Part shown: piece by piece, positions 1 to 19,798 of the stretch
Position numbering within the stretch: the stretch's first letter is position 1
How the letters are laid out: the number at the start of each line of letters is the position of its first letter
Virus record (IMG/VR): IMGVR_UViG_3300050132_000508
Location: 1 to 27,420 of that record
Origin: a virus
DNA length: 27,420 nucleotides
Reading direction: 5' to 3' (one strand)
Translations under genes and position numbers: made by a program
Notes under the pieces: model-generated
What the model saw: only the letters and a program-made list of their open reading frames with translations
Databases searched by the model: none
Told to the model about the DNA's origin: nothing

Positions 1-3000
1 TTATACCTGCGACAACTCGCGGTGAACAGCCGCTTTCAATGCCTTCGGCGCGGTCTTTTGCGTGCGATCCAATGCCGACATCCTCATTTCCTGCACGCGC
101 TTGATAACGGACGGCATGCTGATGATGATCGGCGTGTCCGGGTTCTTGGCATTCCAGTCGTCACGCGCCTTGCGCGCATTGGCAACCATATCCCTGTCGC
201 CAGAGGCTAACCCTTGCGCCCATTGCTCCTGAATATCTTTCGACTCCATCCGGGTCTGGCCGATCACATCAAGTGCCTGACCCTTGGCGTCCTGAACGTG
301 CGCGGTGCTGTTGGGCTGGAAGCCGACCATCTTCATTGCTGATTCAATCGGCGTCACGGCATTGACCTTATAGCCGCGATCATCGCGATAGGTGCCGGTA
401 TTCATCATATCCGCACCTTTTATGATATTGCGGATCGACGCCGGAGTGACCTCGGTTGCCGCGTCCATGAACTTTCCGTCTACCAGCTTGTTGCTGGCGT
501 CAAATGCGCGCTTCGCCACGTCCGCGACCGGGCCAAACAATTCGGCCACGTCGCTTGCATGCGAATCCTTCTTTGTCAGCAGGCCGGTGCCGGGAACCAA
601 TTTGCCCAGGCTGAAGCGGCCGGCGATGTCGATCGGAACACCCGGTAAGCCGGAAAGACCGCGCAGGGCGATATCGGACCCATCTTGCCCCAAGGTATTG
701 ATCAAGAATTCCTGCTTGGCGCGTTTGGTGCTGAAGTTATAGCCCATGCGCTGCAAGATGCCGTCCAGCACATCCTCCATGTCCTGCTCAAACGGCAAGC
801 CGTTTGCGCCGCCCATCAACAGCATGACGGCAACCATCGTCAGCGCGCCCTTGCGTCCTGCGGCGCGCTCCGGCGATCCAGGCTCTCCGGCCGTCGCCAT
901 ACGCGACAGCAATTCGATGTTGCTGATGCTGAACTGCTTGAACGTCATCGCCAAGCCGCCCAGTGTGCTACGGCCCCATGCCGGCTTGTTACCGGCGTTA
1001 TACACGCCCTGCGTCGCGGCGACTGCCTCGGCCGCAAACTTCTCCGGGTTCGCGATCCCTTCTTTGATTGCCGTGTTGTACCCGGCAATGAATGTTACCC
1101 GGCGATTGGTCAACTCGGCCATTGAGAACAGCTTGCCCCATCCCAAGTTGATTTTTGACATGGTATTGCTCAATGCCGCCTTGGTATCTCCCAACATGGT
1201 GCCGTCGCCGGATTGCAATACGCCCTTGCCGTTGGCTTGCGCCTTCAATTGGTGGATTTCCTGCGGCGAGACAATCCCCTCTTCTGTCGCCCACTTCAGC
1301 GCCGCGTCCAGCTTGGCATCGCCAGTTGATTTCTTGCCGGCCAAGCGTACCGCATCCAGCATGCGCGCCGCCGACTTGCCGGCCCCGCCATATTGACTCA
1401 GGTACGGGAAAGTCATTGTAAAGGGCTGCGTCAAATTGACCATTGCCGATGCGACCGAGCCGCCCAGGTATTGCGCGAACATCAAGCCGCCCAAGGCAGA
1501 GCCGCCGCCCTGTGGGTTCTTGATGTGTTCGGCCAGCTTCACGGCCGCATCCTTTAATTCACCCTGCGTCTTCGGAATTGCCTCAATCGCATCGTTCAAT
1601 TCACCCATGTGGGCATTCATGGAGGTCAGCTTGGAATTCGAGTACAGGAAGCCGGCCAGCACGCGCGCGGAGTCTTCGCTGAAGCCGGCGATACCCTTGC
1701 GCTGGATCAGGCGCTTCATGGCGCTGCGATTGTTCTTCGCCAGCTTCAGATACGATTGATAGGCTTCATTGCCGGCTGCGTCCTTGCTATCCAAGCCAAG
1801 CATCGCGCCAAACAGTTCAACCGTTTCCGGTGACACGCCCTGGAACAGCTTGTACGATTCTTTCGACATCGTTCCGTGCGTGATGGTCGCATCCGGGTAG
1901 TTGGCGCGCATTTGCCGTGCCATCTTCGCCGCTTCCATCTTGTCTTCAAACATGCCGAAGTATTTTTCTTCGCCGCCCTGCGTCACGTAGACCGTGTAAT
2001 CGCCATAGCGCGACAGCGGCGCGTAGCCGCGATCGATCAGGTTTTGCGCCTTGTCCGCTTTGACGATCATCTGGTCTGCCGTATCCAGATGCGCGGCTTC
2101 TCTGGCGGGATCGGTTTTCGCAAGCTGCATGAAGTGGTCGCGCAGCAATTCGCTGGCCTTTGCGACGCTGCCGGTGGCGATCATGGCATCATTCATCCCC
2201 TTGGCATCTTGACCGCCGAACTTCACCATGTCGCTGATCGCCAGATTGGTGATACTAAGATCGGTCGCCGCGCGGAATTCCTGATACAAGCCGATCTGCT
2301 TGTCAGTCAGACCGAACTTCTCGCGCAGTTCTGCCGGGGTCCAGACGATACCGCCGCGCAACTCGGATTGTTCAAATTGGTCGTTGATCGTTGCGTCGTA
2401 ATTGTCTTGCTTGCCCTCCATCCAGCGCTTGTTTTGCTCGTCGTCAATGACGCCCTTGCGCAACAGGATTTGCGCTTTTTGATCGACGGACAAGGTTTTT
2501 GCCGCTTCTTCCAAGTCGGCCAGCTTCAGTGCCTTGCCATCGACGCCGCGCGCCCAGGTCAAGGTGCCCTCGAAGATAGGTGCGGCGATCGCCCTGGTGT
2601 CAGCCGGCGACAAAGGCGATTTTTTCCAGATGTCCGACATTTGTTCCAGCTTCGGAATGATGGTCGGCGCGAGGTTTGCCGCTTCATTGGCATACATCGA
2701 TACGTCGCCAATGAAATTTTGTACGCGGTCGTACACCTTTCCGAATAGAGGCTCTTGCTTGGCAAGATTGAACTGGGTGCCGATGGTCTTATGCCACCAG
2801 CCCAGTTTGCCGGAATCGTTGAATAAGTCGCCAACGATGTAATCTGCCGGCAGGCGCACGTCCTTGATGGAGTTTCCGGCTTGCGCCAGGGTGCTGCCGA
2901 TCGTCCGCTTGAAGTTGACGGCCGAATTGTCGGTGCTTATTCCTTCGCCCAGGCTGCTCTGGTTCTCGCGACCTGCTCTGGCGTCAGCGTAGTCTTTGAA

Positions 3001-6000
3001 GGTGATTGTACCATCGTACGCATCAATCTTGCGTAAGCCGTTTCCTTCCCACCAGCCTTCAGCACTGGGGATGACGTGCCAGACGCCAAGTTCTCCGGCG
3101 TCTGCGGCAACTGCGGCAACTGTGTTTTGTGCATAATTCTTTCCTTGTTCAGACTTATCGATCTGGATATCAAGCAAGCGTGTTGGCATGCTTCCATCAA
3201 GCTCCAAGACAGTATATCCGACCTTATTGCCATCCGGGTTCAAAATGTCGTACTTCACCGCGCGCATGCCGTCCGGTGCGGCGTAAAAAACATCATGCGA
3301 ATAGGTCACGTCACGCGGGTTTTCCAGTGAAACATTATCGCTTGACCACGTAGGAAATCCGGTTCTCTTATCGGTTCCCACGTTTTTCCATTCGGTTTCG
3401 ATCTGATATTGGCCAACCTGCGCAGGCGTCGCGCCGTCCTTGATGCCCATGCTGTTGTAATAGTCCGACAGCGATGGATTGCCATTACTGGCGCTACGCG
3501 AGAACGTGATGCCGTTGCTGCTCGGCGACATTTTATCGGCAAGCGCTTCGCGGCTCTGTTGCAGCAGATAATACAGGTCCGCATCGGTGCCGTTCGACAG
3601 AGCGGAAAAACCGTGGCCGCGCAGCCAGCTACGGACCATGCCAAGGATCGCCTGCACCTTGGTTTTCAGTGTTGGCCTTGCTTCCGCGATATGCGCAAGC
3701 ATTTCCTGCATTATTTCATCGATCTTTGCCGCGTCAGTCTTGCTGTCGTCATTTGCTAAATTTGTGGCATACTCCGAAAGATCGATCTTGTGGCGATTGA
3801 CAATATCGTTTAAGCCTTTCATGCCGCCGATCGCATGAAACAGGTCGTTCATCCGTTCTTCGACCCTCTGGCCGAACAGCTTGGAAAGCCCTTGATGTCC
3901 ATACAATTCGTGAAGCAATGTTTTCTCAAACTGTTCCGGCGTCGCGTGCTTGTCGCGAATGACATAAACGACATTATCATGTCGTGCCCCCTCGATAGCA
4001 TTTTCAGCCTTATCGTGGATCGCCGCGTCTACGATGACCTTGGGCAAGTCGTAAAAGTTGTCTACAACCCGGATACTGGTTCCTGTGAGGCCGTCCCGAA
4101 AGCCTCGTACCACGTTCCCGACCACACGATCCGCATCTGCCTGACTCACGACCACGCGATTACTACCGGGCGTGACACCGGATTCTTTGGCGTCTTCCGG
4201 CGCGGCTCTGGAAAAAAAGACTTTTCCCTCCCCAACTTCTTGCGCGAGTGAGTCCGATCCCTCCGTATTTCCGCTCGCATTCACACCCTCGTTTTGCGCT
4301 GCTGCCTGTTGCGCGTCCGTGACCTCCGGTAAAGCGACATCGTTTTCCAGTGGATCGCCATCGATCGCTCTCGCGGTCTTGTCTTGCGACAGTTCGTGAA
4401 TCACTTCCTCCAGGCGTGCATTCTTGGCGTCCAGTTCTCCCTGCTTGGCAAACTGCCCGCCCTTGCGCGCCTCCAAGTCTGGCAATCCGGCCTTGGCATT
4501 CTTCAGGCGTTCCTCTGCATACGACACATTGCCCCTGCGGCCGTTGATATCGAGGTGGTTGTCGAGCGTCGATATCGCCGCCCGCATGCCCGATGTCGAA
4601 TAGGCTTGCAGCGGGTTCGTCTGGCCGCTTGCCAGTGTGGACCCATCCGGCCGCAATACCGCCAGCGTGGTCATGAAGTCGCCGGCAAAGGTCTTGTTAT
4701 AGGTCGCCTCCAACGGCATGCCTAAGTAGGTGCCAAGCTGTTGCGTGACTTCCTTTTCCTTGGTCAGATCGATCGACTTTTGCGCGGCCTGCTCCGCGAT
4801 ATAGCGCGCGGCGTCCGTCCTGCCGATGTACTGGTCATCGTTCATCGTCATTTCAAAGTCGGCAGAGTCGCCAAACACATGGGATATTTCTTCCATATAG
4901 CTGTTTTGCGACGCCTTGCGCTTGCCATTGATCGCAATCGAGAACTTGGCATCGTCATCGCCGGCCTGCTGCGATTTTTGCGCCTCATACGCGGCTTTTT
5001 TCGCTTCCTCCGACGTATGATAGGTCTTGCCTTCGACTTCGATATTGCGGCCGGCAATCTTGTCCGACTGGTCGGTAAAGGCGCGGTGCAATAAGTCCAG
5101 GTCCGCGCGTTGCGCGGCGATATCCGCAGGCAAACGCGCGATGGAGCGCTGTGCGTCCTCGATCTGGCTGATAATTCCCCACTCTTTGCGTGCGTGCTGA
5201 CGCTTCAGCAATTCAAGCGAGTCGATTTCCGACATCAACTTGACCCGTTCCAGCAACATCGGATCGCCCGAAGCGAGCGCGGCCAGTTCCGCCATGCTGA
5301 CCGATTCGTTATCCTCAAAATCCATCGAGAATGCGCCGTCATACTTGCGAATGCCGTTGATCATCTTCAGTTTGGACGAATTCAGCGACCACATTTTCGC
5401 GTCGATAGTGCGTTCGGTCGCATACGCCTTGATTGCCACGGCAAATTTATCCATGCCGTATTTATCCAGCAACATATTGCCCTGACGGATAATCCGGCCT
5501 TCGCGCTGTTCGATGTCGGACGGCTTCCACGTCACATCGACGTGGTGCAGGCCGACCAGACGCTTCTGCACGTTGGTGCCCGCGCCCATGCGCGGCGTCG
5601 AGCCGATCAAGACGCGCGTAGTGCCGTCATTGACCGAATCGAACATCGCTTGTTTCTGTGCGTCGTTGTTGGCTTCCTGTATAAAGCGGACTTCGCCGTC
5701 CGGGATACCGAGCTTGACAAGGTTATCCTTGATCTGTTGGTAGGCATTCCAGCCGCCGTTTTGCGCAAGGCGCATTTCTTCCATCGCGTTCGGATCGTAT
5801 TGCTCCAGGCTTTCACCGACGCGGCGCAATGCCTCGTCGTCGCCATTGCCAAGCGCTTTGCTTTGCTGCGCGAGCAAGGCATCGTAGTTCTTCAGAACCG
5901 TTGCGTCTTCTTTTGCCTTCGGTACCGATCTGTCCAGGAAAACCAGTTGCGTGCCGCGATCCGCATGCCATTGCTGATAGAGCGCATGCACTTGCTGCGC

Positions 6001-9000
6001 CACTTCATCCAGCTTTCCGCCCTTTTCATCGCTCGGGTTGCTTGGATCGACGGCGCGCACGTCCAGCGATACCTTCCTGGCGCGGTCCATCAATTTCAGG
6101 CGTTGGATGTTGCGCTCGCGCGGGTCTTGGATGCCTGGCAGGCCGTCGAAGCCACTGATGATATCGCCCAATAATGAAACTTGCGCCTCGGTCGGCTGAA
6201 TCACGACTGATTCGCGGTCGCCGCCGACAACCTTCGGAATCGGGAACTCTTCGCCGTTGTGGTCTTCTGAATATGACTTCTTGATGTCGTCATTGCTGAC
6301 CGAATCGGTAAAGCCGTTGTACAGGTCCATCAACGAGCGCATGTTAGACCATGTGCGGCCCAGGCGATTGACTTCCTTCAGACGGCCGGTTTCGTTCGGC
6401 TCCCATCCTGCATCGGTCGAGACAAACTGTGCGCGCCATGCGTCGAAGTGGTCTAGTCCGAGTTCTTTCAGCTTATCGGCCGCGAGATAGCGCATCATCG
6501 TGTACATTTCGACGGCGCTATTCGATACCGGCGTGCCGGTCGAGAACGTCACTGCACCCGTTGGCGTTTCGCCCAATACCCGGACCTTGTTATACAGGTC
6601 AAATGCCTTTTGCGATCCGGCCTTGTTGCCCATTCCCTTGACGCCAGTGAGGCGCGAACTATAAAAGAGGTTCTTGAATTCGTGCGATTCATCGATCGAC
6701 AAATCATCAACGCCCATTTGCTCAAACGTCAGCAAGCGGTCCTTGCTGTCTGCGCCCTTGATCATGTCCATGCGCGCCGTGATCTTGTCGCGCAAGCGCT
6801 CGGCTTCCTTCACGCCGAACGGCTTGCGGTACGAGGTTACGCCGCTGTCGTCGGCCGCTTCCTGCGCATCCTTGATTGCCGCTTCTGCCGCTTCCAGTTC
6901 GCCATTCAGGTAGCGCCCTTCGGTTTCCGGTGAAATCGGGATAAAGAAGAACGACGAATGCGGAATCAGTACGATATCGTGGTCGCCGGTTGCGATCTTC
7001 GCGAACAGTTTGCGACGCTTGGACTTTTCAAAGTCGGCTTTGCCGGCCGCAAGCACTTTCGCGCCCGGATACAGGCGATAGATATCCGCTGTGAATTGCC
7101 CGATCATGTGATTAGGGACAACGATCAACGGCTTTTGCGACAAGCCCATGCGACGGCGCTCCATTGCGCGCGCAATCATGGTGAAGGTCTTGCCTGCGCC
7201 GACCGCATGGTCGAGCAACATGTAGCGCTCCGCGATGCCGCGCCAGATCGCATTTTTCTGATGGCGGCGCATTTCAATTACGGAGTCCGGTACCTTACCC
7301 GGCAAAATCAGGTGCGAACCGTCATGCTGGCGATTGACCACCGTATTGAACTTGTCGTTGAACATCGATACCAGCTCGTTGCGACGATCTGCGTCCTTGA
7401 ATACCCAGTCGTTGAATTCAGCGACGATTGCCTTGGATTTCAGCGCCGCAAGGGCGGTTTCTTCCTGATTGATGTGTGCCTTGCCGTCGCTGTCGTGGTC
7501 AACTACCTTCGTCGCGCGGCTGTTAAGCAAATCGTTGATCAGTGCCGTCGAGGGCATGCGCGACGTGCCCCATTCTTCTTCGTTGGCCCGGAAATTGGCC
7601 TTGTTGTCGATCGAATAGCTGTTCGTCAGCGCGGAAAACTGTACGCGCGAATCTTTTCCGCCCGATATGTGGTCAATGAATTCCTTGTAATGCTTGGGCG
7701 GTATCCATGCCGCGCCCAGGATCGGCGTGACGTGTTCCGCGCCCCACGGTTCCGGCTGAATTTCGGTCAGCGCCCTGACGTTTTGCGGCAGTCCGGCATT
7801 ACGCGCGGCTTCCAGCTTGCGCACCACTTGCCCGGACAAGTATTCGTTGCGCGTGACGATATCGCCGGTTTCCGGGTCGGTGAAGACCAGTGGCTTATCG
7901 GCGTTGAGCATTTCGCCGGAAACAGTTTCCTTGGGCAGTCCAAGCAGGGACGCAATGCGGTCCATATCGACGCGACCGGATTCAGCCATCACGATCGACA
8001 GCGCATCGGCATGGCTCGTCGCCTCGGTCGGCGGAATATACTTGTTGATGACGCGCTCGGACAAGATCGGCGCAGGATTGGCCGTTGCTTCACGGGCCTT
8101 TTCGCCCATCTTTTCCGCTTTTGCCTTGCTGATCGCCGGCCGGTATCCGTTTTCCAGTGCTTGCACCAATGCGCCATCCGGCATGTTTTGAACCAAGGCG
8201 GAATTGGACTGTTCGCTGATGAAACCGTTGCCGTCGATAAATTTCTTGTAGGCGGAGTTCAATGTCTTGCGGTTCGCCTCGATCATCTTGGCCGGCGCAT
8301 CTTCCGCTTCCAGCATCAATTGATTCTTGAGGATATCGCGCATGCCGACCAATTCCTTCAGGCGACCGAAGCGCGCTTCACCCAAGAGCGCGCCGGCCGG
8401 AATATCGGACTCGTTGGCGAATACCTTACGCTCGTACAGATTGCGGTTGGTCGGCACGTCGCCCTTCATGATCTTGACGTTCTTGCCGTCCGCGTCTAGC
8501 ACGGGTTCAACTTTGTACCATTTCCCTTCGGAATTCATGAGCAGATCGGGTGCCCACGGCGATGCCGGCGACAAGGCGCGCTTGGTAAGTTCAAAATCGC
8601 CTTCCGGCGTTTCGCGCTCGATGACTTGCTGCATGCTGCCATCGTTGGCAAGCTGGATCGCGCCTTGCTCATGGCCTTCGAGTGCGATATGCAGCGAATC
8701 GCTCATCGCTTTGTGGCGGGAGATCGACGCATCGATCGCGCTTTGATGTTGCGCCATCACGTTTTCCGGCAAGGTGGCAACAGCGGTCTTGAGCATGCCG
8801 GCAAGGTCGCCGCCCTTGTCCGGACGCACGGTGATATCGTTCCCGTGCTGCATCGATCCTGAACGCTCCAGCGAACCCATGATCATGTGCGGGTTCGCCT
8901 TGAAGTAGCTATTGACCTGCATCGGCTCGCCGCCCAGTGGATCGGAAACCTTGGCAGAATTCACCCATGCCGGAATCTGGCCGGCCAGCGCGCGGCGCTC

Positions 9001-10611
9001 GGCTTCGGCCTGATAGTTCTTTTCCGGTTTGCTGCGGGCAGCGGAAAATGCGGCTTCCATGTTGGCCTCTTCCGCCGCCGTCAAGCGCTGCAAGAACAGG
9101 ATATCGGTCACAACTTCGGTGCGCGCATTCTCTTTGAAGGCGCTATCGGGCAAGCGGATCGCGGCCAGTAGCTTGGCTTTCGCTGCCAGCATGTTGCGCG
9201 CGGTTGCATCCATTGCGTCGAGCAGGTAGCGCGAGACAACCTGAACCTGCAAACCACCAGGCTTCACGGCATCGAGCGCGGCCAGGAAGAATTGATTATG
9301 GATCGACAGGCGGTTCAATTCAGGCTTGAACTGGAAGCGCAGCGATTGATTGCCGAATGGCGGATTGCCGATACTCAGGTCGAAGCTGCCATCGGACAGC
9401 GGCACATTCTGGAAGCCGCTATTCAATACGGTTTCCTGTGGGTAGAGCGCTTGCGCGATACGCGAGGTCAGGCTGTCGTATTCGACGCCAATAAACTTCG
9501 TGCTGTGCGCCAAGTCTTCAGGGATCAATCCAAGGAAATTACCCGTACCCATTGACGACTCAAGCGTCAAACCGCCTTGGAAACCAAGACGACGCGCCGC
9601 GTCCCACATGCTTTGCACGATGGTTTGCGACGTGTAGTGCGAGTCGAGCGTCGAGCGCGAAGCAAGTTGCTGCTCGGCAGGCGTCAACAGGCTGGCCAGT
9701 TCAGGTCCGCGCGTTTTCCATGCGTCCTTATAGTCGCCAGTCAGCGGGTCCGGGAAGGCGTTTGCCAATCCGCCCCAACCGACATAGCGCGCAAGAATGC
9801 CTTGCTCGGTCGGCGTGGCGCGGCGATTTTCTTCCTCGATCTGCTTGAGCGTGCGGATCGCCAGCAGGTTATCGTTGAATTTCTCAACTTCGCCGCCTTT
9901 TCCAAGGCGCAAATCGTCGGTAATACGGAAATTTTGCGCCGGAATGCTCGGCGCGTTGCTTGCTGTGGGGGTCGGCGTTAAGTCGGTTCTACTGCGTTCT
10001 CCGGGTCTTGCGGATCGTACATCATTTCCTGATACTTCTTCTCCGCTGCCGCGCGCTCCACTTCCTCCCAGTCGTCCGGGTTCGGCTCCTCCGGTGGTAG
10101 CAGGATATACCTCTTCAGCGCCACTTCCTCCGCTTCGTGCGCCCGGTACCCCTGCTGAATCAAGTCCGATATCTCGTTGAACGCCTTCGACGCTGCCGTC
10201 TGAATGGCCTCCCCCAGTTCTCCGTCCTTCTTCAGTTCCGCCGTTTTCTCCGGGAGCCACTGCGCCCAGTGTTCCCGCGCCATCATCGCTAATGTCGTTC
10301 TGTCCATTGCCGCCGCCATTTTTTACGCCCCTTTCAAGTGTATCTGAATTGTCAGGAATTACAAAATTACTAATCGCAGGCGCAAAATCGCCCCAGTCAA
10401 CGGCATGGCCGTCTTTCTCGGCAATCGCATTGATCTGTGCCACGATGCCGGCGCGTTCGTCGTGCGCGTCCTTCAGCATCAAATTCGCGGCCGTCAAATA
10501 CGCCGCCGCTTTCGTGACGCCATCCGTTTCCATTACCTCGGCAACCCGCTCCTTGAGTGCCGCCATTTCGGACTTCGGATAAGATGCCAAACAGGTCGAG
10601 GGAGAAGCCAT
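1..10611 (-). CDS. Giant polyvalent protein: DarB-like N6-adenine methylase + SNF2 helicase + zincin + PLxRFG-type C-terminus (3536 aa)
   Basis: The sequence is complete: ATG at 10611 behind an AAGGT Shine-Dalgarno, TAA at 1-3. Visible parts are: a 97-residue helical N-terminus; a Gly/Ser-rich linker (about 98-212) that overlaps a nested gene; the DarB-type YVGWGG motif (about 274); methylase motif I (GTGNF, about 352) and NPPF (416-419), the N6-adenine catalytic motif; a helicase with Walker A GAGKT (1138-1142), DESH (1307-1310) and QREGRIIRQGN (1702-1712); a zincin-like HELYGH (2234-2239); a possible GNAT-like fold (about 2475-2525); PLSRYG (2865-2870), matching the PLxRFG family; and a hydrophobic segment near 3250-3270. 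Such polyvalent proteins, including P1 DarB, are known to be delivered with phage DNA and to act against restriction. Its position after the ejection-protein genes supports virion packaging here, but that is inference. The GNAT call is the weakest. Confidence 0.9.
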   Translation of the reverse strand: MASPSTCLASYPKSEMAALKERVAEVMETDGVTKAAAYLTAANLMLKDAHDERAGIVAQINAIAEKDGHAVDWGDFAPAISNFVIPDNSDTLERGVKNGGGNGQNDISDDGAGTLGAVAPGENGGTEEGRRTGGGHSDGSVEGVQRDIGLDSAGVPGARSGGSGAEEVYPATTGGAEPGRLGGSGARGSGEEVSGNDVRSARPGERSRTDLTPTPTASNAPSIPAQNFRITDDLRLGKGGEVEKFNDNLLAIRTLKQIEEENRRATPTEQGILARYVGWGGLANAFPDPLTGDYKDAWKTRGPELASLLTPAEQQLASRSTLDSHYTSQTIVQSMWDAARRLGFQGGLTLESSMGTGNFLGLIPEDLAHSTKFIGVEYDSLTSRIAQALYPQETVLNSGFQNVPLSDGSFDLSIGNPPFGNQSLRFQFKPELNRLSIHNQFFLAALDAVKPGGLQVQVVSRYLLDAMDATARNMLAAKAKLLAAIRLPDSAFKENARTEVVTDILFLQRLTAAEEANMEAAFSAARSKPEKNYQAEAERRALAGQIPAWVNSAKVSDPLGGEPMQVNSYFKANPHMIMGSLERSGSMQHGNDITVRPDKGGDLAGMLKTAVATLPENVMAQHQSAIDASISRHKAMSDSLHIALEGHEQGAIQLANDGSMQQVIERETPEGDFELTKRALSPASPWAPDLLMNSEGKWYKVEPVLDADGKNVKIMKGDVPTNRNLYERKVFANESDIPAGALLGEARFGRLKELVGMRDILKNQLMLEAEDAPAKMIEANRKTLNSAYKKFIDGNGFISEQSNSALVQNMPDGALVQALENGYRPAISKAKAEKMGEKAREATANPAPILSERVINKYIPPTEATSHADALSIVMAESGRVDMDRIASLLGLPKETVSGEMLNADKPLVFTDPETGDIVTRNEYLSGQVVRKLEAARNAGLPQNVRALTEIQPEPWGAEHVTPILGAAWIPPKHYKEFIDHISGGKDSRVQFSALTNSYSIDNKANFRANEEEWGTSRMPSTALINDLLNSRATKVVDHDSDGKAHINQEETALAALKSKAIVAEFNDWVFKDADRRNELVSMFNDKFNTVVNRQHDGSHLILPGKVPDSVIEMRRHQKNAIWRGIAERYMLLDHAVGAGKTFTMIARAMERRRMGLSQKPLIVVPNHMIGQFTADIYRLYPGAKVLAAGKADFEKSKRRKLFAKIATGDHDIVLIPHSSFFFIPISPETEGRYLNGELEAAEAAIKDAQEAADDSGVTSYRKPFGVKEAERLRDKITARMDMIKGADSKDRLLTFEQMGVDDLSIDESHEFKNLFYSSRLTGVKGMGNKAGSQKAFDLYNKVRVLGETPTGAVTFSTGTPVSNSAVEMYTMMRYLAADKLKELGLDHFDAWRAQFVSTDAGWEPNETGRLKEVNRLGRTWSNMRSLMDLYNGFTDSVSNDDIKKSYSEDHNGEEFPIPKVVGGDRESVVIQPTEAQVSLLGDIISGFDGLPGIQDPRERNIQRLKLMDRARKVSLDVRAVDPSNPSDEKGGKLDEVAQQVHALYQQWHADRGTQLVFLDRSVPKAKEDATVLKNYDALLAQQSKALGNGDDEALRRVGESLEQYDPNAMEEMRLAQNGGWNAYQQIKDNLVKLGIPDGEVRFIQEANNDAQKQAMFDSVNDGTTRVLIGSTPRMGAGTNVQKRLVGLHHVDVTWKPSDIEQREGRIIRQGNMLLDKYGMDKFAVAIKAYATERTIDAKMWSLNSSKLKMINGIRKYDGAFSMDFEDNESVSMAELAALASGDPMLLERVKLMSEIDSLELLKRQHARKEWGIISQIEDAQRSIARLPADIAAQRADLDLLHRAFTDQSDKIAGRNIEVEGKTYHTSEEAKKAAYEAQKSQQAGDDDAKFSIAINGKRKASQNSYMEEISHVFGDSADFEMTMNDDQYIGRTDAARYIAEQAAQKSIDLTKEKEVTQQLGTYLGMPLEATYNKTFAGDFMTTLAVLRPDGSTLASGQTNPLQAYSTSGMRAAISTLDNHLDINGRRGNVSYAEERLKNAKAGLPDLEARKGGQFAKQGELDAKNARLEEVIHELSQDKTARAIDGDPLENDVALPEVTDAQQAAAQNEGVNASGNTEGSDSLAQEVGEGKVFFSRAAPEDAKESGVTPGSNRVVVSQADADRVVGNVVRGFRDGLTGTSIRVVDNFYDLPKVIVDAAIHDKAENAIEGARHDNVVYVIRDKHATPEQFEKTLLHELYGHQGLSKLFGQRVEERMNDLFHAIGGMKGLNDIVNRHKIDLSEYATNLANDDSKTDAAKIDEIMQEMLAHIAEARPTLKTKVQAILGMVRSWLRGHGFSALSNGTDADLYYLLQQSREALADKMSPSSNGITFSRSASNGNPSLSDYYNSMGIKDGATPAQVGQYQIETEWKNVGTDKRTGFPTWSSDNVSLENPRDVTYSHDVFYAAPDGMRAVKYDILNPDGNKVGYTVLELDGSMPTRLLDIQIDKSEQGKNYAQNTVAAVAADAGELGVWHVIPSAEGWWEGNGLRKIDAYDGTITFKDYADARAGRENQSSLGEGISTDNSAVNFKRTIGSTLAQAGNSIKDVRLPADYIVGDLFNDSGKLGWWHKTIGTQFNLAKQEPLFGKVYDRVQNFIGDVSMYANEAANLAPTIIPKLEQMSDIWKKSPLSPADTRAIAAPIFEGTLTWARGVDGKALKLADLEEAAKTLSVDQKAQILLRKGVIDDEQNKRWMEGKQDNYDATINDQFEQSELRGGIVWTPAELREKFGLTDKQIGLYQEFRAATDLSITNLAISDMVKFGGQDAKGMNDAMIATGSVAKASELLRDHFMQLAKTDPAREAAHLDTADQMIVKADKAQNLIDRGYAPLSRYGDYTVYVTQGGEEKYFGMFEDKMEAAKMARQMRANYPDATITHGTMSKESYKLFQGVSPETVELFGAMLGLDSKDAAGNEAYQSYLKLAKNNRSAMKRLIQRKGIAGFSEDSARVLAGFLYSNSKLTSMNAHMGELNDAIEAIPKTQGELKDAAVKLAEHIKNPQGGGSALGGLMFAQYLGGSVASAMVNLTQPFTMTFPYLSQYGGAGKSAARMLDAVRLAGKKSTGDAKLDAALKWATEEGIVSPQEIHQLKAQANGKGVLQSGDGTMLGDTKAALSNTMSKINLGWGKLFSMAELTNRRVTFIAGYNTAIKEGIANPEKFAAEAVAATQGVYNAGNKPAWGRSTLGGLAMTFKQFSISNIELLSRMATAGEPGSPERAAGRKGALTMVAVMLLMGGANGLPFEQDMEDVLDGILQRMGYNFSTKRAKQEFLINTLGQDGSDIALRGLSGLPGVPIDIAGRFSLGKLVPGTGLLTKKDSHASDVAELFGPVADVAKRAFDASNKLVDGKFMDAATEVTPASIRNIIKGADMMNTGTYRDDRGYKVNAVTPIESAMKMVGFQPNSTAHVQDAKGQALDVIGQTRMESKDIQEQWAQGLASGDRDMVANARKARDDWNAKNPDTPIIISMPSVIKRVQEMRMSALDRTQKTAPKALKAAVHRELSQV
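9978..10319 (-). CDS. Nested small phage protein overprinted in the +1 frame of the giant gene (113 aa)
   Basis: This frame lies wholly inside the 3536-aa gene, shifted +1, opposite its Gly/Ser-rich linker (residues about 98-212). The ATG at 10319 follows a strong Shine-Dalgarno (AAAGGGG, about 7 bases upstream), and the frame ends in TAA at 9978. The product is acidic and helical with balanced globular composition, with segments such as AREHWAQWLPEKTAELK and a YILLPPEE motif. Chance +1 frames in this window are instead Arg/Ser/Pro-rich. It resembles, from memory, a family of small phage proteins with a W-LP-AELK start and an LLPPE end, often found close to such giant genes. No function is known to me. 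The overlapped frame looks like the passive partner, being low-complexity Gly/Ser. I regard this as a real gene, though expression is not proven. Confidence 0.75.
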   Translation of the reverse strand: MAAAMDRTTLAMMAREHWAQWLPEKTAELKKDGELGEAIQTAASKAFNEISDLIQQGYRAHEAEEVALKRYILLPPEEPNPDDWEEVERAAAEKKYQEMMYDPQDPENAVEPT

Positions 10612-10953: not shown

Positions 10954-13900
10954 TTACCCTTTCATACAGGCGATCAAGTCTTCCAGAGACTTGATACGGT
11001 CGGAAACATCGCGCATGGCGACGCTGGCCGCGACACTCATGCGCGCTGACTTGCCGGTATCGGCATTCTTGACATCGACGGCGATGCGAATTTCAGACAA
11101 TGGCTTGCGCGGCAGTTCCGGTTCCGGCGTTGTAGTCGGCGCATCCTTACCGAACAGGTGCGCGGCGTCGGCATCGCTGACCATCGTTTGCCCGTTGGCC
11201 TTAGCCGCCGCCAGTTCGCGCTCATGCTCGATCTGATCGGCTGCAGCCTGATCGGTGCTGATCAGTTTGTCGCCATCGCCGCGTGTGGCTTCCGCCGATT
11301 CGCCCAGGCGCGTCAGTGCAACCTCGGCATATTTACGCCCCACCTTGTCGAGCGGGTAATAGCGGTCGGTTTCATGATTGACCAGCGCATATTTGGGAAC
11401 GGCAGACTTGGAAATGTTCTCGATCGACGTGAAGCCCTCGGAAATCTGGCGATCGATCACATCCTTGCCGGAAACGAGGGTCTTATCCTCGGCGCTGGTC
11501 TGGAATTGTTGATTGTCGGCGTTGCGTTCGGCATCGGCGGCGTGTTCAGCCGTTTGCTTTGCCTTCAGTAGCGCAGCCTGGGCTTCGTTGTGCGCCTTGT
11601 CCTGTTCCGGCGTGACGCCGGCCCATTCCTTGAGCGCTTCCCATGACGCGCCCTGCGCTTTCGGCAATTTGACGCCTGTGAACTCGGCAAAAACCTTTTT
11701 ACTTTTGTCGTTCAAGCCGTTGGTGATCCACTTCAGGCGATAGGCATCCTTGCTGATCAGATCATCGGCGAAACGGTAATGAAACTCCGTCGATACCGGG
11801 CTTACGCCGTCGCGCCCCTCGGCCAGCAGTTGCGCATAGCGCGCGGCGATCACGTTGCGGTCAAGCGGCTTGTCGCCATCCTGCTCGGCCTTGATTTCGT
11901 CTGCGGTCGGCGCGGTTTCTTCTTTGGCTTTCGGCTCGGTTAAGCCACGCAGTGCAATTTCCTTGGCGATCGGCTTTTCACGCTTCGGCAATGTATCCTT
12001 GGCCTGCCACAGTTGATCGTCGCTCATGTCCTTGACCGACAGGCGGTTCAATTCCTGCGCGGTCAGCGCTGGCGCGGCCGGCTCGTCGCTGGCAGCGGTC
12101 GGCTCCTTGCCGGATTTAATATCGGGCTGCGCTTTTTCAGGCTCCGAACGGTCATTCTTTGAGAACTCATCATCGGGTTCTACGATAACCTTGTCGGGCC
12201 GTTCAAATGCCCGCTCGCCATCCCATTCCTGGTAATGTAAGATAGGCTTTCCATCGCCATCCGTCTTCACGCTCGATACCTCGGCGCTCCTTCCGCTGGA
12301 AGTGGTAACAGTGTCGCCAATATGGATAGGCAATCCGTTCTTGTCCTTCGCAATCGGGGCCAGCGTTTGATTTTTGTTCGTGTCGATGGCCGGCGCAGCA
12401 ACAGGAGCCGCTTCTGTCGGCTTTGCTGGCGCTGCATACGCAGTCACATCGTCCGGGTGCGTGTTTGCTACGTCGGATTCGCTATCGGTGCCTTCGTGAA
12501 ACTCGGCAATCGCGTTGTACGCGGCTTTCCATTGGCGCGGGCTGATCTTGTCAACGTGCGGCGCAACCGCAGGGTTAGCGCGCATCAACTTGGATGCCTG
12601 CGATACCGCCTGCTGAAGCGAGCGAGCGCCCTTGCGCACCAATAACTCAATAACCTTTGACAGCGCCGGCAGGAGCGCGCCAGCGGTATGCTGCTGGCCG
12701 GTGATATTCAGCTTTGCGCCGAATACGTCGCCCAATACATCGCCCAGGTGCGACATTGCATCCGACATTTCATTGTCAAAGGCGATATCTTCGGCTGATT
12801 TTTCCGGCGTTGAATCCGGTCCAGTCCGCTTTTCCAGTTCTGCGGCACTTGCTGCCGCTTTATCCTGTTCCGACCATTTCGCGGCCAGTTGCTCCATGCC
12901 CTTGTCATGTTCCGCTATGCGCTGCTTTTCCGAGTCGCGTTCAGCCTTCAGGCGGCGTGCTTTTTCCAGGCCGGGAGGAGCAGCTATAGCCTGATGAAAA
13001 TCGGTCGTGACCGCTTCCTCCGGCGCATTTTTTGCGATTGGCTGCTTGGTCTTGCCATCCTTCAGCCATGCCTTGAAATCGTCCATCGACGTTTCGGTGA
13101 TCTGCTTGCCCCCCCTCCAATTGGCGTCATAGTTCGACTGGTAGGCGTCGCGCGCCTGCTGCATCGTGTCGAAGCCAAGCATGACCTTATGTTCGTCTGG
13201 CTTGCCGGTGTCCGGGTTGACCTGATCGACAACGAAAACCTTCTTGCTGTCTTCATTCTTGCCAATAAAGGTGTCGATATGGTCTTTGTCCATACCGACC
13301 GTACCCTTGATGTAGCCATAGTGCTGCTGCATCGTGGTTTCCCACGGCGTTCCATCGCGCGCAATGCCCGAGCGGGTCGAGCCGGCAGGATTCTCGATCG
13401 AGATATCCATACCATCGAAGCGAACATGGCCCTTGGCATAGTTGCCGGCCTCCTTTTGCGCTTCCGTTGGCTGCGCAAGATCGTTATGCGGCGAGGTTGC
13501 TGCTGCGTGCGCGGCGAGGTCGAGCGTACTTAATGGCGCTTTTTTCGCCTCGGCTTCAACATGATCGCTAGTACCGCCAGGTCGTGCAAGTCCATCAACC
13601 GCTGCTTCGTTACCGCTTCCGGCCGGAACATGACGCTCAATTCTGCTTGCGTAGTCAACTCCGCCTTGATCATTTTTCCCTGCAATTCCGGCGTCCAGAT
13701 TACCGGATCGTACATTTCCATTGACATCGCGCGCCTTGATTGCTTGTTGGTAATAGGATTTCTGCCCATCGTTGAGCTTGAAAATCTTGGTTGACCCAGG
13801 CTTGTGCAGGATATTGCCGGCCGGCGTCTTCAGGCGCATGCCTTGGGCGATCGCCGTGTCCACGGCGTCGGTGTTGGCTTTGCCGGCGCGAGCGCGTACC

Positions 13901-15963
13901 GCGTCGATCTTTTCAGGTACGGCATTGACCAATTCATTCGGCGCGCTCGGCTCCGGCCGGATCGCGTCGTCAATATGGACGTGGTCTTCGTCGGTCAGGC
14001 GCGGATTGATATAGCCGTCGCGCTTGAGTGCAGCGGCATAGGCATCCTTCTTGCGCTCGGCCGGGATCGCGTCATTGTCCAGCACTTGATTGCGCAAGGC
14101 GGCGCGGTTGGCATCGGCCTTCTGCTGGTACGCTGCTGCCGTGCGTGCGTCAGTGGCTTTGATCGCCTCGTTTTGTTGCAGTGCATCCCACCGCGATTGC
14201 TCTGCTTGCGCGGTTGCCGCCCGATCCCTGTCTTCCTTCAATAGCGATTCCATCTGTGCGTGTTCGCCAAAGCCGGTAGGTGCCGACATCGCGCGCGTGG
14301 TTGCCATGTCCTGTAGCGCTTGATGCGATACAGGCGGCAACGTGGCGTCGATCGATCCGGCTTCAGCCGGTGCCTGCAAGTGCTGCACGGCAGTCAAGAT
14401 CGATTGCGATAACGCGCTGGTCGGAGCGACGGTATAGTCTCCCTCGGCATGGGGAATGATCGTCAGTTGATTGCTTTGCCCGGACGCATTCATGCGCGGG
14501 ATAGCTTCTTGCAAGTAGTCTAGGTCGTATGGATGCCCCATAGACGAATACGTTTGCAGATTTTGCAGCCCGGACGTGTTCTGTGTCTTTTCCGGTGCCG
14601 TGTAGTCGATCGCATTAGGATGCGGATTAGCAGTCGGGTTGTACAGAGACAGAGGGGGTGCCGACTGCGCTGGATCGGCGGGTATCGGCGTCTGCGTATA
14701 GTCGAGCGGCTTGCTCAAGTCCTGTTTTTCAGCAAGCGCTGCTTGCCCTGCATTCGCCGCCTGCGACAGCACGCCAGTATCTGCCAATACCATAGGGGCG
14801 GCATTTACTTGGCTTGGATCGTCATGCGTCGCATCGCCATGCGCGCCATTCCCGTGCGCAAATGCGCCGGTAGCGCCGCCCATCACTGCGCCATTGACCA
14901 AGGCATCGCCGGCCGCGTTGGTGACGCCCTTCATCAAGTCCGGTTCACCGTTGGCGATATTGGTGAAATACTGTTCCTGCGCCGCCTGCGGCATGCCTTG
15001 CAGCACGCCTTGATGCAACATTTCCTTGCCGACCTGCGTAAGTTTGCTTCCGGTGACGCCCATCGCTTCCGAGCCGGTCGCCAATTGCATCTTGGCACTT
15101 CCCATAAGCCGGCCGGTGGCGTAGGTCAGTGCGCCGGTTCCCGCGCCTGCCGCAAGTGCCGGCAGTGCATAATCGCTGTAATCGCGGCCATTCTCCGCTG
15201 CGTTCTCTGCGATATTGCCCGTGCTTTGCGACCCCATGTCCGCAGCGCCGGCCGCATGCAATGCACCTGTACTGGATTCGAGTGCGGTTTGCGCTGCGCT
15301 CATGACAGGAGCACCCGCCGCTGTGGATGCGGTTTGCGCGGTCGCGGCATCGGCTTCGAGCGCGGCCTTTGCCGCCGCGTCTTCCGTTCCACCAGCCTCA
15401 ATGATCGCTTTTGCTGCCGCCGCTCCCTCATCGGTAGCCAGCGCCGCCTTGATCGCAATGCGGCCAGCTACAAGACCGCCAACGGCCATCGTTTCGCCAA
15501 TACCAGGTAGGGAGCCGACAATACCCCCCATGAGCGCGCGCGGATTTTTGACGTTGGCAACGATCTTATCGACAAAGCCATCGGCATTCGCGACGTTCTG
15601 ATCAGATTGATTCTGACTATCGCTCAACCCCTGGCCAAGAAACTGATTAGTCGCTTCGGGGTCGTAGCCAATGGCGCGCAATCCGTTGCCGGCCGCGCCG
15701 CCAGTAAGCATGTCCGCGCGGCCGACAACACTCTTTCCGTAGTCCACCACGCCTTGCGCCGCCTTGATGCCCATATCGCCAACCGTACGCAATACGCCGG
15801 CCTGCTGCACTGGAGGCGTCGGGGGCGTGTATCCCATGCTCTTTTCGAGAATGGACTTATCCATGTCCGGGTAGTACATTTGATGAACGGCATCGACAAA
15901 CTGGCCGTCATCAAGGCCGTCGCTCAATGCCGGCAATTTCGCGCGCGCTTCTTGAATGTTCAT
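10954..15963 (-). CDS. Putative ejection/internal virion polyvalent protein with inorganic-pyrophosphatase-like domain (1669 aa)
   Basis: ATG at 15963 follows an AGGGA Shine-Dalgarno; the stop is at 10954. The first 400 residues are Ala/Gly-rich with long weakly hydrophobic helices (for example about 140-175), as in proteins that phages eject into the cell envelope. Residues about 841-972 match the pyrophosphatase-like domain of phage polyvalent proteins: a KGHVRFDGMDISIENPAGS start, GYIKGTVGMDKDHIDTFIG with acidic DKDHID at 892-897, and a W-GG-ITE end. A small SH3-like basic segment may lie near 1210-1260. The C-terminal third is charged and probably coiled-coil. It follows the 672- and 237-aa genes, so the three may form the ejection set, comparable in position to T7 gp14-16. 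No transglycosylase motif was seen. The role in DNA delivery is inference; the pyrophosphatase-like domain is well supported. Confidence 0.85.
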   Translation of the reverse strand: MNIQEARAKLPALSDGLDDGQFVDAVHQMYYPDMDKSILEKSMGYTPPTPPVQQAGVLRTVGDMGIKAAQGVVDYGKSVVGRADMLTGGAAGNGLRAIGYDPEATNQFLGQGLSDSQNQSDQNVANADGFVDKIVANVKNPRALMGGIVGSLPGIGETMAVGGLVAGRIAIKAALATDEGAAAAKAIIEAGGTEDAAAKAALEADAATAQTASTAAGAPVMSAAQTALESSTGALHAAGAADMGSQSTGNIAENAAENGRDYSDYALPALAAGAGTGALTYATGRLMGSAKMQLATGSEAMGVTGSKLTQVGKEMLHQGVLQGMPQAAQEQYFTNIANGEPDLMKGVTNAAGDALVNGAVMGGATGAFAHGNGAHGDATHDDPSQVNAAPMVLADTGVLSQAANAGQAALAEKQDLSKPLDYTQTPIPADPAQSAPPLSLYNPTANPHPNAIDYTAPEKTQNTSGLQNLQTYSSMGHPYDLDYLQEAIPRMNASGQSNQLTIIPHAEGDYTVAPTSALSQSILTAVQHLQAPAEAGSIDATLPPVSHQALQDMATTRAMSAPTGFGEHAQMESLLKEDRDRAATAQAEQSRWDALQQNEAIKATDARTAAAYQQKADANRAALRNQVLDNDAIPAERKKDAYAAALKRDGYINPRLTDEDHVHIDDAIRPEPSAPNELVNAVPEKIDAVRARAGKANTDAVDTAIAQGMRLKTPAGNILHKPGSTKIFKLNDGQKSYYQQAIKARDVNGNVRSGNLDAGIAGKNDQGGVDYASRIERHVPAGSGNEAAVDGLARPGGTSDHVEAEAKKAPLSTLDLAAHAAATSPHNDLAQPTEAQKEAGNYAKGHVRFDGMDISIENPAGSTRSGIARDGTPWETTMQQHYGYIKGTVGMDKDHIDTFIGKNEDSKKVFVVDQVNPDTGKPDEHKVMLGFDTMQQARDAYQSNYDANWRGGKQITETSMDDFKAWLKDGKTKQPIAKNAPEEAVTTDFHQAIAAPPGLEKARRLKAERDSEKQRIAEHDKGMEQLAAKWSEQDKAAASAAELEKRTGPDSTPEKSAEDIAFDNEMSDAMSHLGDVLGDVFGAKLNITGQQHTAGALLPALSKVIELLVRKGARSLQQAVSQASKLMRANPAVAPHVDKISPRQWKAAYNAIAEFHEGTDSESDVANTHPDDVTAYAAPAKPTEAAPVAAPAIDTNKNQTLAPIAKDKNGLPIHIGDTVTTSSGRSAEVSSVKTDGDGKPILHYQEWDGERAFERPDKVIVEPDDEFSKNDRSEPEKAQPDIKSGKEPTAASDEPAAPALTAQELNRLSVKDMSDDQLWQAKDTLPKREKPIAKEIALRGLTEPKAKEETAPTADEIKAEQDGDKPLDRNVIAARYAQLLAEGRDGVSPVSTEFHYRFADDLISKDAYRLKWITNGLNDKSKKVFAEFTGVKLPKAQGASWEALKEWAGVTPEQDKAHNEAQAALLKAKQTAEHAADAERNADNQQFQTSAEDKTLVSGKDVIDRQISEGFTSIENISKSAVPKYALVNHETDRYYPLDKVGRKYAEVALTRLGESAEATRGDGDKLISTDQAAADQIEHERELAAAKANGQTMVSDADAAHLFGKDAPTTTPEPELPRKPLSEIRIAVDVKNADTGKSARMSVAASVAMRDVSDRIKSLEDLIACMKG
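13530..13727 (-). CDS. Candidate nested protein overprinted in the +1 frame of the 1669-aa gene (65 aa)
   Basis: This frame is shifted +1 inside the 1669-aa gene, opposite a Gly-rich linker just before the pyrophosphatase-like domain. I chose the ATG at 13727 because AAGG lies 6 bases upstream; an earlier ATG at 13769 would give 79 aa but lacks a Shine-Dalgarno. The product begins MSMEMYDPVIWTPELQ, contains a helical LMDLHDLAVLAIML stretch and ends in a basic tail (KPRRKKRH). Its composition looks like a folded small protein, unlike the Arg/Ser-rich chance frames nearby. I know no function. It repeats the design of the nested gene at 9978-10319, which raises my confidence, but a chance open frame cannot be excluded. 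Confidence 0.45.
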   Translation of the reverse strand: MSMEMYDPVIWTPELQGKMIKAELTTQAELSVMFRPEAVTKQRLMDLHDLAVLAIMLKPRRKKRH

Positions 15964-18183: not shown

Positions 18184-18869
18184 TTAAGCGCATTGACATC
18201 GCTTGCCTGAGTGGTATATGGGTCTGCCGCGTTCAAAGCGGTCGTCTGTGCCGCATTTTGTCCATATATCCCTGCAAGTCCGCTGATCGTCGTTGATGCC
18301 AACCCACCGATTCCTGTCGCGGTAGACGAGGCAAGTTTCTGCTGGTTGGCGGCAATCGCCATTGAGCCATTGGCCGCATTCGCCAGCCCGGTAGAGGCGT
18401 TAGTGACAAGACCCTTACCTAAACCGAGAGAGTCCATCTGACGGCCCCATGCCTCATTTTTGATATTGGTACGAGCCTGCGTCTGCGCATTAGCGCCTAT
18501 TGCCGCACCCTTGATTTGTAAATCGGTGTTTGCCGCCGTCGCTGCCGCACTGCTTGGGTCAAGCCCTGGCGTACGCGCAAGGTTTGCCTGCGCCGCTCCG
18601 ATCTGGCTTGATACATCGGCCTGTGCCGTGCCTGCCGCCTGATTTTCGTTCGCCTGCGAATCGAAGTTCTGTGCCGTGGAAACCATTTGGTTTTCCATCG
18701 GCTGATAAGTCTGTAGGTAGGTGTTGTATTGCTGGTTCGCCAATGCCGTTTGGGACTGGGTAGCCGCCGTTGCTGCATCCGTGGCGCTTGCTGCCGTATT
18801 CGCTGCCTTATTGGATGCGACGCCGGCTACGATCGCGCCACCTACTGCCGCAGTAATCATTGCTGACAT
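18156..18869 (-). CDS. Putative ejection (internal virion) protein, Ala/Gly-rich (237 aa)
   Basis: ATG at 18869 follows AAGGA at 6 bases and overlaps the end of the SET gene by 13 bases; a second in-frame ATG at 18860 is less well placed. The protein opens with a small hydrophobic segment (MITAAVGGAIVAGVASNKAA). A helical, Gln/Ala/Asn-rich body follows, with almost no charged residues and repeated QAN and AAN patterns (AQANLART, ATAANTDLQI). The end is Gly/Ala-rich with weak hydrophobic stretches (TGIGGLASTTISGLAGIYG). This composition is typical of small internal virion proteins that insert into or cross the host envelope, such as the T7 gp14 class. The gene order before two larger putative ejection proteins fits. 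The assignment rests on composition and position, not on a motif. Confidence 0.75.
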   Translation of the reverse strand: MSAMITAAVGGAIVAGVASNKAANTAASATDAATAATQSQTALANQQYNTYLQTYQPMENQMVSTAQNFDSQANENQAAGTAQADVSSQIGAAQANLARTPGLDPSSAAATAANTDLQIKGAAIGANAQTQARTNIKNEAWGRQMDSLGLGKGLVTNASTGLANAANGSMAIAANQQKLASSTATGIGGLASTTISGLAGIYGQNAAQTTALNAADPYTTQASDVNALNGGGTVVGL

Positions 18870-19798
18870 GGAAAATCCTTGTGAAAAGTTTTCATAACCT
18901 CGTTGACGGACTGGCGGTAATCAATAGTGATTTCCTCGCCATCCTGCCCGCCTTGACAACCATGAATGTCGCGCAACGCGACGAGGTTGATATCACCGCG
19001 ACTATTCGCGATGGTCATACGTGCGTTTGGTGCCTTTGCATGATTGGTATAGCGGCCGGCCGGTGTGCGCTTCTCGTCCACCTTGGCTGGCGCAATGATT
19101 TCTCCCTCTACTATGCTGGCCGTGGCGAACACGCCGCGCCCTTCAATGGGCGACTTCGATACCTTCATCTTGTAATTGCCCATCGGCATGGGAATCTGAT
19201 TACTTTCAATTTCGGATTGCGCGCGGACATACTCTGCTGTCACGCCAAACTCAGCGAGCATTTTTGTAAAGTCGTTGCGGTCTACCGCGTGCGCGATCTG
19301 GCCCTTGAAATGCTTGGCGTCCAAGTGGGAATTCCAAGTCTTATCCTTGGTAAAGAAAATCTTTTCCAGCGCGTCAATATCGGTTTCACTGGTCGAAAAG
19401 ATGTTCAGCCAAGTAGTGTCTTCATGGATGTAGCCGATTTTCTTCCCAGGCGGACCGACAAAGCACATGGGAGCGCGCATTTCCTCGATGCTTCCGTCGT
19501 CCTTGAACATCGTTACCAAGCCGGTAAGAAAGACGTTCATTTGCTCGAAATTCTGGTGATGGCCGATAGCAAACGTATCGGCAGGGATATTAACTTCGCG
19601 TATGTAGAGATTTGGCCCGAAGCGATGAATGACCGGGCAGTCCCGTTGCGGCATGGCGAGCATGATTTGCTCTACAGATTCAACCATTTCAGAAGTAAAT
19701 GGCGCACCGCCGATGACGGACCAGACACTTTCCGCAGATTCCGGCGTAAGCTGAATGGCAGGCCCGTGCTGTCTATTGATAAGCTGCAAATTCGCCAT
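18857..19798 (-). CDS. Cupin + SET-domain protein, putative protein-lysine methyltransferase (313 aa)
   Basis: Residues about 60-150 form a cupin-like barrel: GHHQNFEQMNVFLTGLVTMF, then PMCFVGPPGKKIGYIHEDT with His125, as in small phage cupin proteins. Residues about 208-300 form a SET domain with its hallmark motifs: EGRGVFA (219-225, S-adenosylmethionine loop), RYTNHAKAPNA (249-259, equivalent to RFxNHSCxPN) and GEEITIDY (287-294, with the catalytic-type Tyr294). SET proteins methylate lysines of other proteins; the target here is unknown and might be a virion or host protein. The gene lies between tail genes and ejection genes, and its end overlaps the 237-aa start. The ATG at 19798 is preceded by GGGAT, which a hairpin can cover. 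The SET call is firm; activity is not shown. Confidence 0.85.
   Translation of the reverse strand: MANLQLINRQHGPAIQLTPESAESVWSVIGGAPFTSEMVESVEQIMLAMPQRDCPVIHRFGPNLYIREVNIPADTFAIGHHQNFEQMNVFLTGLVTMFKDDGSIEEMRAPMCFVGPPGKKIGYIHEDTTWLNIFSTSETDIDALEKIFFTKDKTWNSHLDAKHFKGQIAHAVDRNDFTKMLAEFGVTAEYVRAQSEIESNQIPMPMGNYKMKVSKSPIEGRGVFATASIVEGEIIAPAKVDEKRTPAGRYTNHAKAPNARMTIANSRGDINLVALRDIHGCQGGQDGEEITIDYRQSVNEVMKTFHKDFPCQQ

Follow-up and report, generated by a model that had tools for sequence, protein, structure and literature searches.

A TnpV-like gene probably overprinted on the linker of giant DarB-type methylase-helicase genes in phages and plasmids

A small gene can lie entirely within a larger phage gene, in a different frame and with a start of its own, as in the pairs Rz/Rz1 of lambda and D/E of phiX174. 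To our knowledge, long overlapping genes on one strand have seldom been well supported outside small viruses, and gene-finding programs suppress them. Polyvalent proteins of the DarB type join an adenine methylase to an SNF2-type helicase in one giant protein, and we know of virion packaging and injection for DarB of phage P1 only. In P1, the protein Ulx, encoded next to darB, aids localization of DarB to the virion head (PMC9024508). For TnpV of Tn4451, a role in excision has been no more than postulated, from its homology with lambda Xis (PMC3158075). Here we describe a locus in a 27,420-base virus record (IMG/VR IMGVR_UViG_3300050132_000508, the whole of which we call the window) that touches on all of these. 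Positions 9978-10319, minus strand, very probably code twice, once for a linker within a giant DarB-type protein and once for a separately initiated TnpV-like protein of ~113 amino acids, and the arrangement is conserved among relatives.

The nested open reading frame (ORF) has 113 codons and runs from 10319 to 9978, with its ATG at 10319-10317 and its TAA at 9980-9978. It lies in the +1 frame relative to the giant gene (1-10611, minus strand, 3536 amino acids), which reads through it. An earlier sequence-only reading of the window had called the two frames "opposite", whereas they are on one strand and merely out of frame. A Shine-Dalgarno-like AAAGGGG (10328-10334) stands 8 nucleotides ahead of the ATG, and an in-frame TAA (10323-10325), one codon ahead of it, shuts the nested frame upstream; a second in-frame ATG (10305-10307, MDRTTL...) aligns with the start conserved in relatives and is an alternative nested start, all of these again on the minus strand. 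The predicted product is acidic, with an isoelectric point (pI) of 4.45, and all-helical in its AlphaFold model, with a predicted local distance difference test score (pLDDT) of 85. The frame, its ribosome-binding motif and the acidic, helical nature of the product are thus as the sequence-only reading had them. When the giant protein was recoded synonymously at its own codon usage, the nested frame was open in 49% of trials, so the length of the ORF alone is unremarkable and the case rests on comparison.

A pattern scan and tblastn search of IMG/VR returned one nested copy, 75% identical and itself inside a 3,329-amino-acid giant. Relatives were gathered by the conserved start of the methylase module (9532-9963, minus strand, FRITDD..., labelled LPD36 from its position N-terminal to the methylase), that is, without selecting for the nested gene, and the DNA upstream was then examined by tblastn, by a profile hidden Markov model and by a second profile for the Firmicutes form. 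Relatives of the nested gene were recovered at 122 loci. At 121 of these they sit ahead of the methylase in its +1 frame, and the methylase frame stays open through them; the lone exception is a Streptococcus phage or mobile element (L143) with a TnpV gene (8183-8411) just after the SNF2 gene. Homology reaches down to 24-35% identity with the frame constant. The search for homologues that the sequence-only reading had set as a test therefore succeeded in more than 100 loci, all in the same frame, and stop codons in the nested frame, which that reading had named as a refutation, occur in none of the relatives. The pair recurs in phages, prophages and mobilizable plasmids, in Proteobacteria and Firmicutes, and named phages that carry it include Sinorhizobium PBC5, Agrobacterium Atu_ph08, Klebsiella SopranoGao and LASTA, Pseudomonas Itty13, Vibrio VvAW1, Ochrobactrum POI1126, Erwinia PEp14 and Microcystis Mwe-JY07.

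In none of the named-phage regions fetched is the nested gene annotated as a feature of its own, and we found no earlier report of the nested pair in the open-access literature. Two Enterococcus faecalis plasmids, pKUB3006-2 and pEFM9-2 (L177 and L178, 2300-3500), are identical over 1,201 bases here; the annotation of one shows a full SNF2-related protein, that of the other TnpV followed by a shortened SNF2-related protein. The split is therefore a choice of annotation, and such divergence helps explain why the pair stayed hidden.

Both frames bear marks of selection. When the window is compared with its closest full-length relative, whose giant is 81% identical, the nested protein is 75% identical and the giant's linker 55%. 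Changes within the overlap fall 44/17/16 on the giant's three codon positions, the third position, normally the freest, being the most conserved. Among the window giant's 32 alternative-frame ORFs of 80 codons or longer, the reversed pattern is found in the nested ORF only, with a giant third-position share of 0.21; for the 29 others with an alignment the share is 0.44-0.84. The same pattern is seen in 30 close pairs across the family, with changes concentrated at the nested third codon position, and constraint is thus strongest in the nested frame; constraint in the giant's frame only, which the sequence-only reading had named as a refutation, is not what is seen. The enclosing frame is also kept within the overlap. 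With the nested proteins held constant and synonymous codons redrawn at each locus's own codon usage, 118 giant-frame stops would be expected in 39 phage-type loci (PBC5 excluded) and 324 in 53 further loci, ~442 in total, and there are none in either set. Stops in the third frame are undepleted (201 against 150 expected, and 515 against 394), so the absence of giant-frame stops is no effect of composition. Same-frame homologues, the substitution pattern and the missing stops together justify the earlier description of a real-looking gene.

The nested genes also have translation signals of their own. Relatives keep an ATG at the homologous position, and Shine-Dalgarno cores precede 25 of 40 phage-type nested starts (8.5% at same-frame control ATGs) and 46 of 51 Firmicutes-type starts (11.5% at the corresponding controls). 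In the giant's frame, an ATG with a Shine-Dalgarno core between the nested start and the methylase was found in 0 of 40 loci, which makes independent initiation of the methylase there unlikely, and in the window the sole in-frame giant start inside the overlap is a GTG that has no Shine-Dalgarno motif and lies 99 codons ahead of the methylase.

It should be considered whether simpler readings would account for these data. That the giant alone is translated and the nested ORF is open by chance is almost certainly wrong: given the giant protein, about half of such frames would be open, but homology at constant frame to such low identity, substitutions patterned by the nested frame, the enrichment of Shine-Dalgarno cores and homology with TnpV all speak against it. 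Alternatively, the nested gene and the methylase could be separate genes, the methylase starting near the nested stop without any read-through of the giant. The fast evolution of the giant's linker, mostly a by-product, would suit this, as would the one plasmid record annotated so; however, the complete lack of giant-frame stops, the paucity of usable starts in the overlap and the fact that identical plasmid DNA is annotated both ways make it very unlikely. Highly improbable, too, is a nested product made as a C-terminal extension of the giant's N-terminal part by programmed frameshifting. It draws on phage PBC5 (L003, 11964-12315), where a comparison with Atu_ph08 shows a change of frame immediately ahead of the nested start, so that orf33 runs straight into the nested frame, but this change may be an insertion or deletion, a sequencing error or a real fusion. 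In the window the TAA ahead of the nested ATG rules out that the giant's N-terminal part is joined to the nested product by a frameshift, and in several relatives a stop stands 1-6 codons upstream.

Dual coding remains our reading of the locus, and the nested gene is, on this comparative evidence, a real, conserved and largely unannotated overprinted gene. Ribosomes on the giant's mRNA would read the overlap as a hydrophilic linker between the N-terminal part and the methylase-helicase module, while the internal Shine-Dalgarno motif and ATG would allow separate initiation in the +1 frame and yield an acidic, helical protein of ~113 amino acids; we infer that both proteins are produced. The linker itself (giant residues ~98-211, 9979-10320, minus strand), which shares its DNA with the nested gene, is rich in Gly, Ser, Arg and Glu, in agreement with the Gly/Ser-rich stretch described earlier. 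Its hydropathy is -0.96, against -0.93 expected from synonymous reshuffling of the nested codons, and disorder-promoting residues are slightly in excess (0.75 against 0.69 under reshuffling, in 38 of 40 loci). Because its hydropathy matches that of reshuffled nested codons, we take the linker to be largely a by-product of the nested gene's sequence, kept stop-free, as the sequence-only reading had proposed.

By profile comparison, the nested gene of the window is a remote relative of TnpV (PF14198) rather than a member by Pfam threshold. Nested ORFs from Firmicutes match PF14198 with 88-126 bits (1e-25 to 1e-37; cut-off 27 bits), and an intermediate (L093) scores 24.6 bits (2.5e-5), below the cut-off. 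Aligned by hhalign, the nested profile matches TnpV with a probability of 94.7% (E 6e-8), and with 94.0% (E 1.4e-7) when a larger alignment is used, which points to shared ancestry. AlphaFold models of the nested protein and of TnpV (pLDDT 81) predict the same fold, with the same order of helices around Pro and Gly turns, the comparison being one of secondary structure only. A structure search of the PDB gave no match for either model, and none to DNA-binding proteins; profile matches against the PDB were to de novo designed helical proteins or due to chance, and were dismissed as effects of composition. The sole significant match in a viral structure search is Q8W6J4, which we take to be the PBC5 protein described above. 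Since orf33 of PBC5 continues into the nested frame, PHROG_938 has the nested family as its C-terminal end, and the "endolysin" label of the PHROG_938 match to the window's nested protein stems from this PBC5 protein, so that a lysis function was rejected.

Several observations weigh against our interpretation. The whole case is computational, and the set of loci is partly redundant. No nested match was found in 16 loci, and only 9 of these end at a contig edge, leaving 7 misses away from any edge. The darB gene of phage P1, checked as a laboratory model, is without the nested gene, so the arrangement is not universal. The nested protein of the window (P0001) has no Pfam match and falls short of the PF14198 gathering cut-off, its link to TnpV running through profiles and intermediates. 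Finally, stand-alone TnpV genes occur in small mobile elements without an adjacent giant, which speaks against an obligatory partnership.

As to the origin of the overlap, the sequence-only reading had proposed a local fusion, in which a small upstream gene (giant residues 1-97; 10321-10611, minus strand) was joined to the DarB-like gene straight through an intact middle gene. This does not fit the relatives, as the overlap is present in nearly all of them and only the small clade of L006, L009 and L010 has homologues of residues 1-97. The giants of most relatives extend 500-2000 codons further upstream in the same frame. Next to the window's giant lies a gene for a 1669-amino-acid polyvalent-type protein (10954-15963, minus strand) with an InPase domain (PF18823). 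In L014, L033 and L017, where the giant is contiguous, the sequence that it matches is the giant's N-terminal part. For this reason the window's shorter giant was more likely derived by splitting or by loss or replacement of its N-terminus. An ancient fusion, insertion or overprinting may possibly lie behind the overlap itself. In 11 genomes with the pair, the 30 TnpV loci inspected comprise 17 nested in the +1 frame, 11 stand-alone and 2 ambiguous, the stand-alone genes having recombinase, conjugation and relaxase genes, among others, in their vicinity. The stand-alone homologues looked for upstream of DarB-like genes thus exist, but mostly not directly upstream. A quick tree, without a safe root, interleaves nested and stand-alone TnpV and implies at least two changes on well-supported branches. 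A bolder scenario, which we regard as doubtful, is that TnpV and the giant form an ancient overlapping pair, possibly predating the split of proteobacterial phages and Firmicutes elements, with stand-alone TnpV genes, including that of Tn4451, as escapees and the nested protein as an obligate co-factor of the giant, acting as a DNA-protection machine.

Ideas concerning the function of the nested protein are more tentative. It may be a partner made from the giant's message that aids folding of the giant or its loading into the virion or transfer channel; the idea is raised by the single message for both proteins, by their linkage across phages and plasmids and by the parallel with P1 Ulx, and we put it forward as the possibility that we favour, although it is less likely than not. 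Dual coding would also accommodate an antirestriction or anti-defence protein, such as a DNA mimic, acting beside the giant. The protein is acidic and sits inside an antirestriction-type gene, and small overprinted genes are often accessory, but charge is unconserved (-18 to +2 in phage members, -13 to +4 in TnpV members) and neither Pfam nor any PDB fold links it to known antirestriction families, so we consider this unlikely. A role as an excisionase-like accessory factor in recombination would accord with the excision postulated for TnpV of Tn4451 (PMC3158075) and with stand-alone TnpV genes near recombinase, relaxase or conjugation genes. The phage members, however, are strongly acidic (median pI 4.9), their linkage is to giant structural and antirestriction genes rather than integrases, and no fold match to DNA-binding proteins was obtained; we consider this role distinctly unlikely.

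Elsewhere in the giant, Pfam matches comprise the helicase PF04851 above cut-off, PF00176 and PF00271 below it and a weak Eco57I-type methylase match (PF07669), also below; the start of the methylase is ~50% identical to named-phage proteins annotated as DNA methylase or DarB-like antirestriction. The giant thus combines a methylase with an SNF2-like helicase in the manner of DarB-type proteins. An antisense frame of 513 codons (6958-8499, plus strand) was rejected as a gene, since 11 same-frame stops in the closest relative mark it as a chance ORF. Further along the window, a gene at 18857-19798 (minus strand) encodes a 313-amino-acid protein that matches the SET domain (PF00856, E 6e-8), which is unusual beside phage tail genes.

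A family with nested and stand-alone members and one frame throughout offers a rare chance to study long-term dual coding and the choice of the +1 frame. Many DarB/SNF2 polyvalent genes would encode a second protein, which functional studies in the open-access literature have apparently not considered; this bears directly on mutants, since one with its giant deleted or truncated loses the nested gene as well. TnpV, for which no function has been shown, gains a new context.

Compared with the systems described to date, the locus combines familiar parts in a different way. The DarB-type polyvalent proteins of Iyer et al. 2017 (PMC5512222) likewise have the methylase-helicase dyad within a giant multi-domain protein and an InPase-containing neighbour, and the text of that study, which we searched, mentions neither an overlapping gene nor TnpV. 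P1 lacks the nested gene, and separate small proteins such as Ulx place its DarB (PMC9024508); Ulx has no detectable sequence homology with the nested gene and does not overlap darB, and the likeness is one of functional analogy only. With TnpV of Tn4451, Tn6104 and their relatives the nested protein shares a helical core and the order of its helices, and the Firmicutes nested genes are TnpV by the Pfam cut-off in the same +1 arrangement, whereas the phage branch is without the N-terminal ~30 residues of TnpV and is more acidic, and the TnpV genes described so far stand alone, with no published demonstration of function. Finally, lambda Rz/Rz1 and phiX174 D/E serve lysis, while the gene that encloses the nested one here encodes a giant methylase-helicase, and, unlike those two, the present pair is found in plasmids and bacterial chromosomes as well as in phages.

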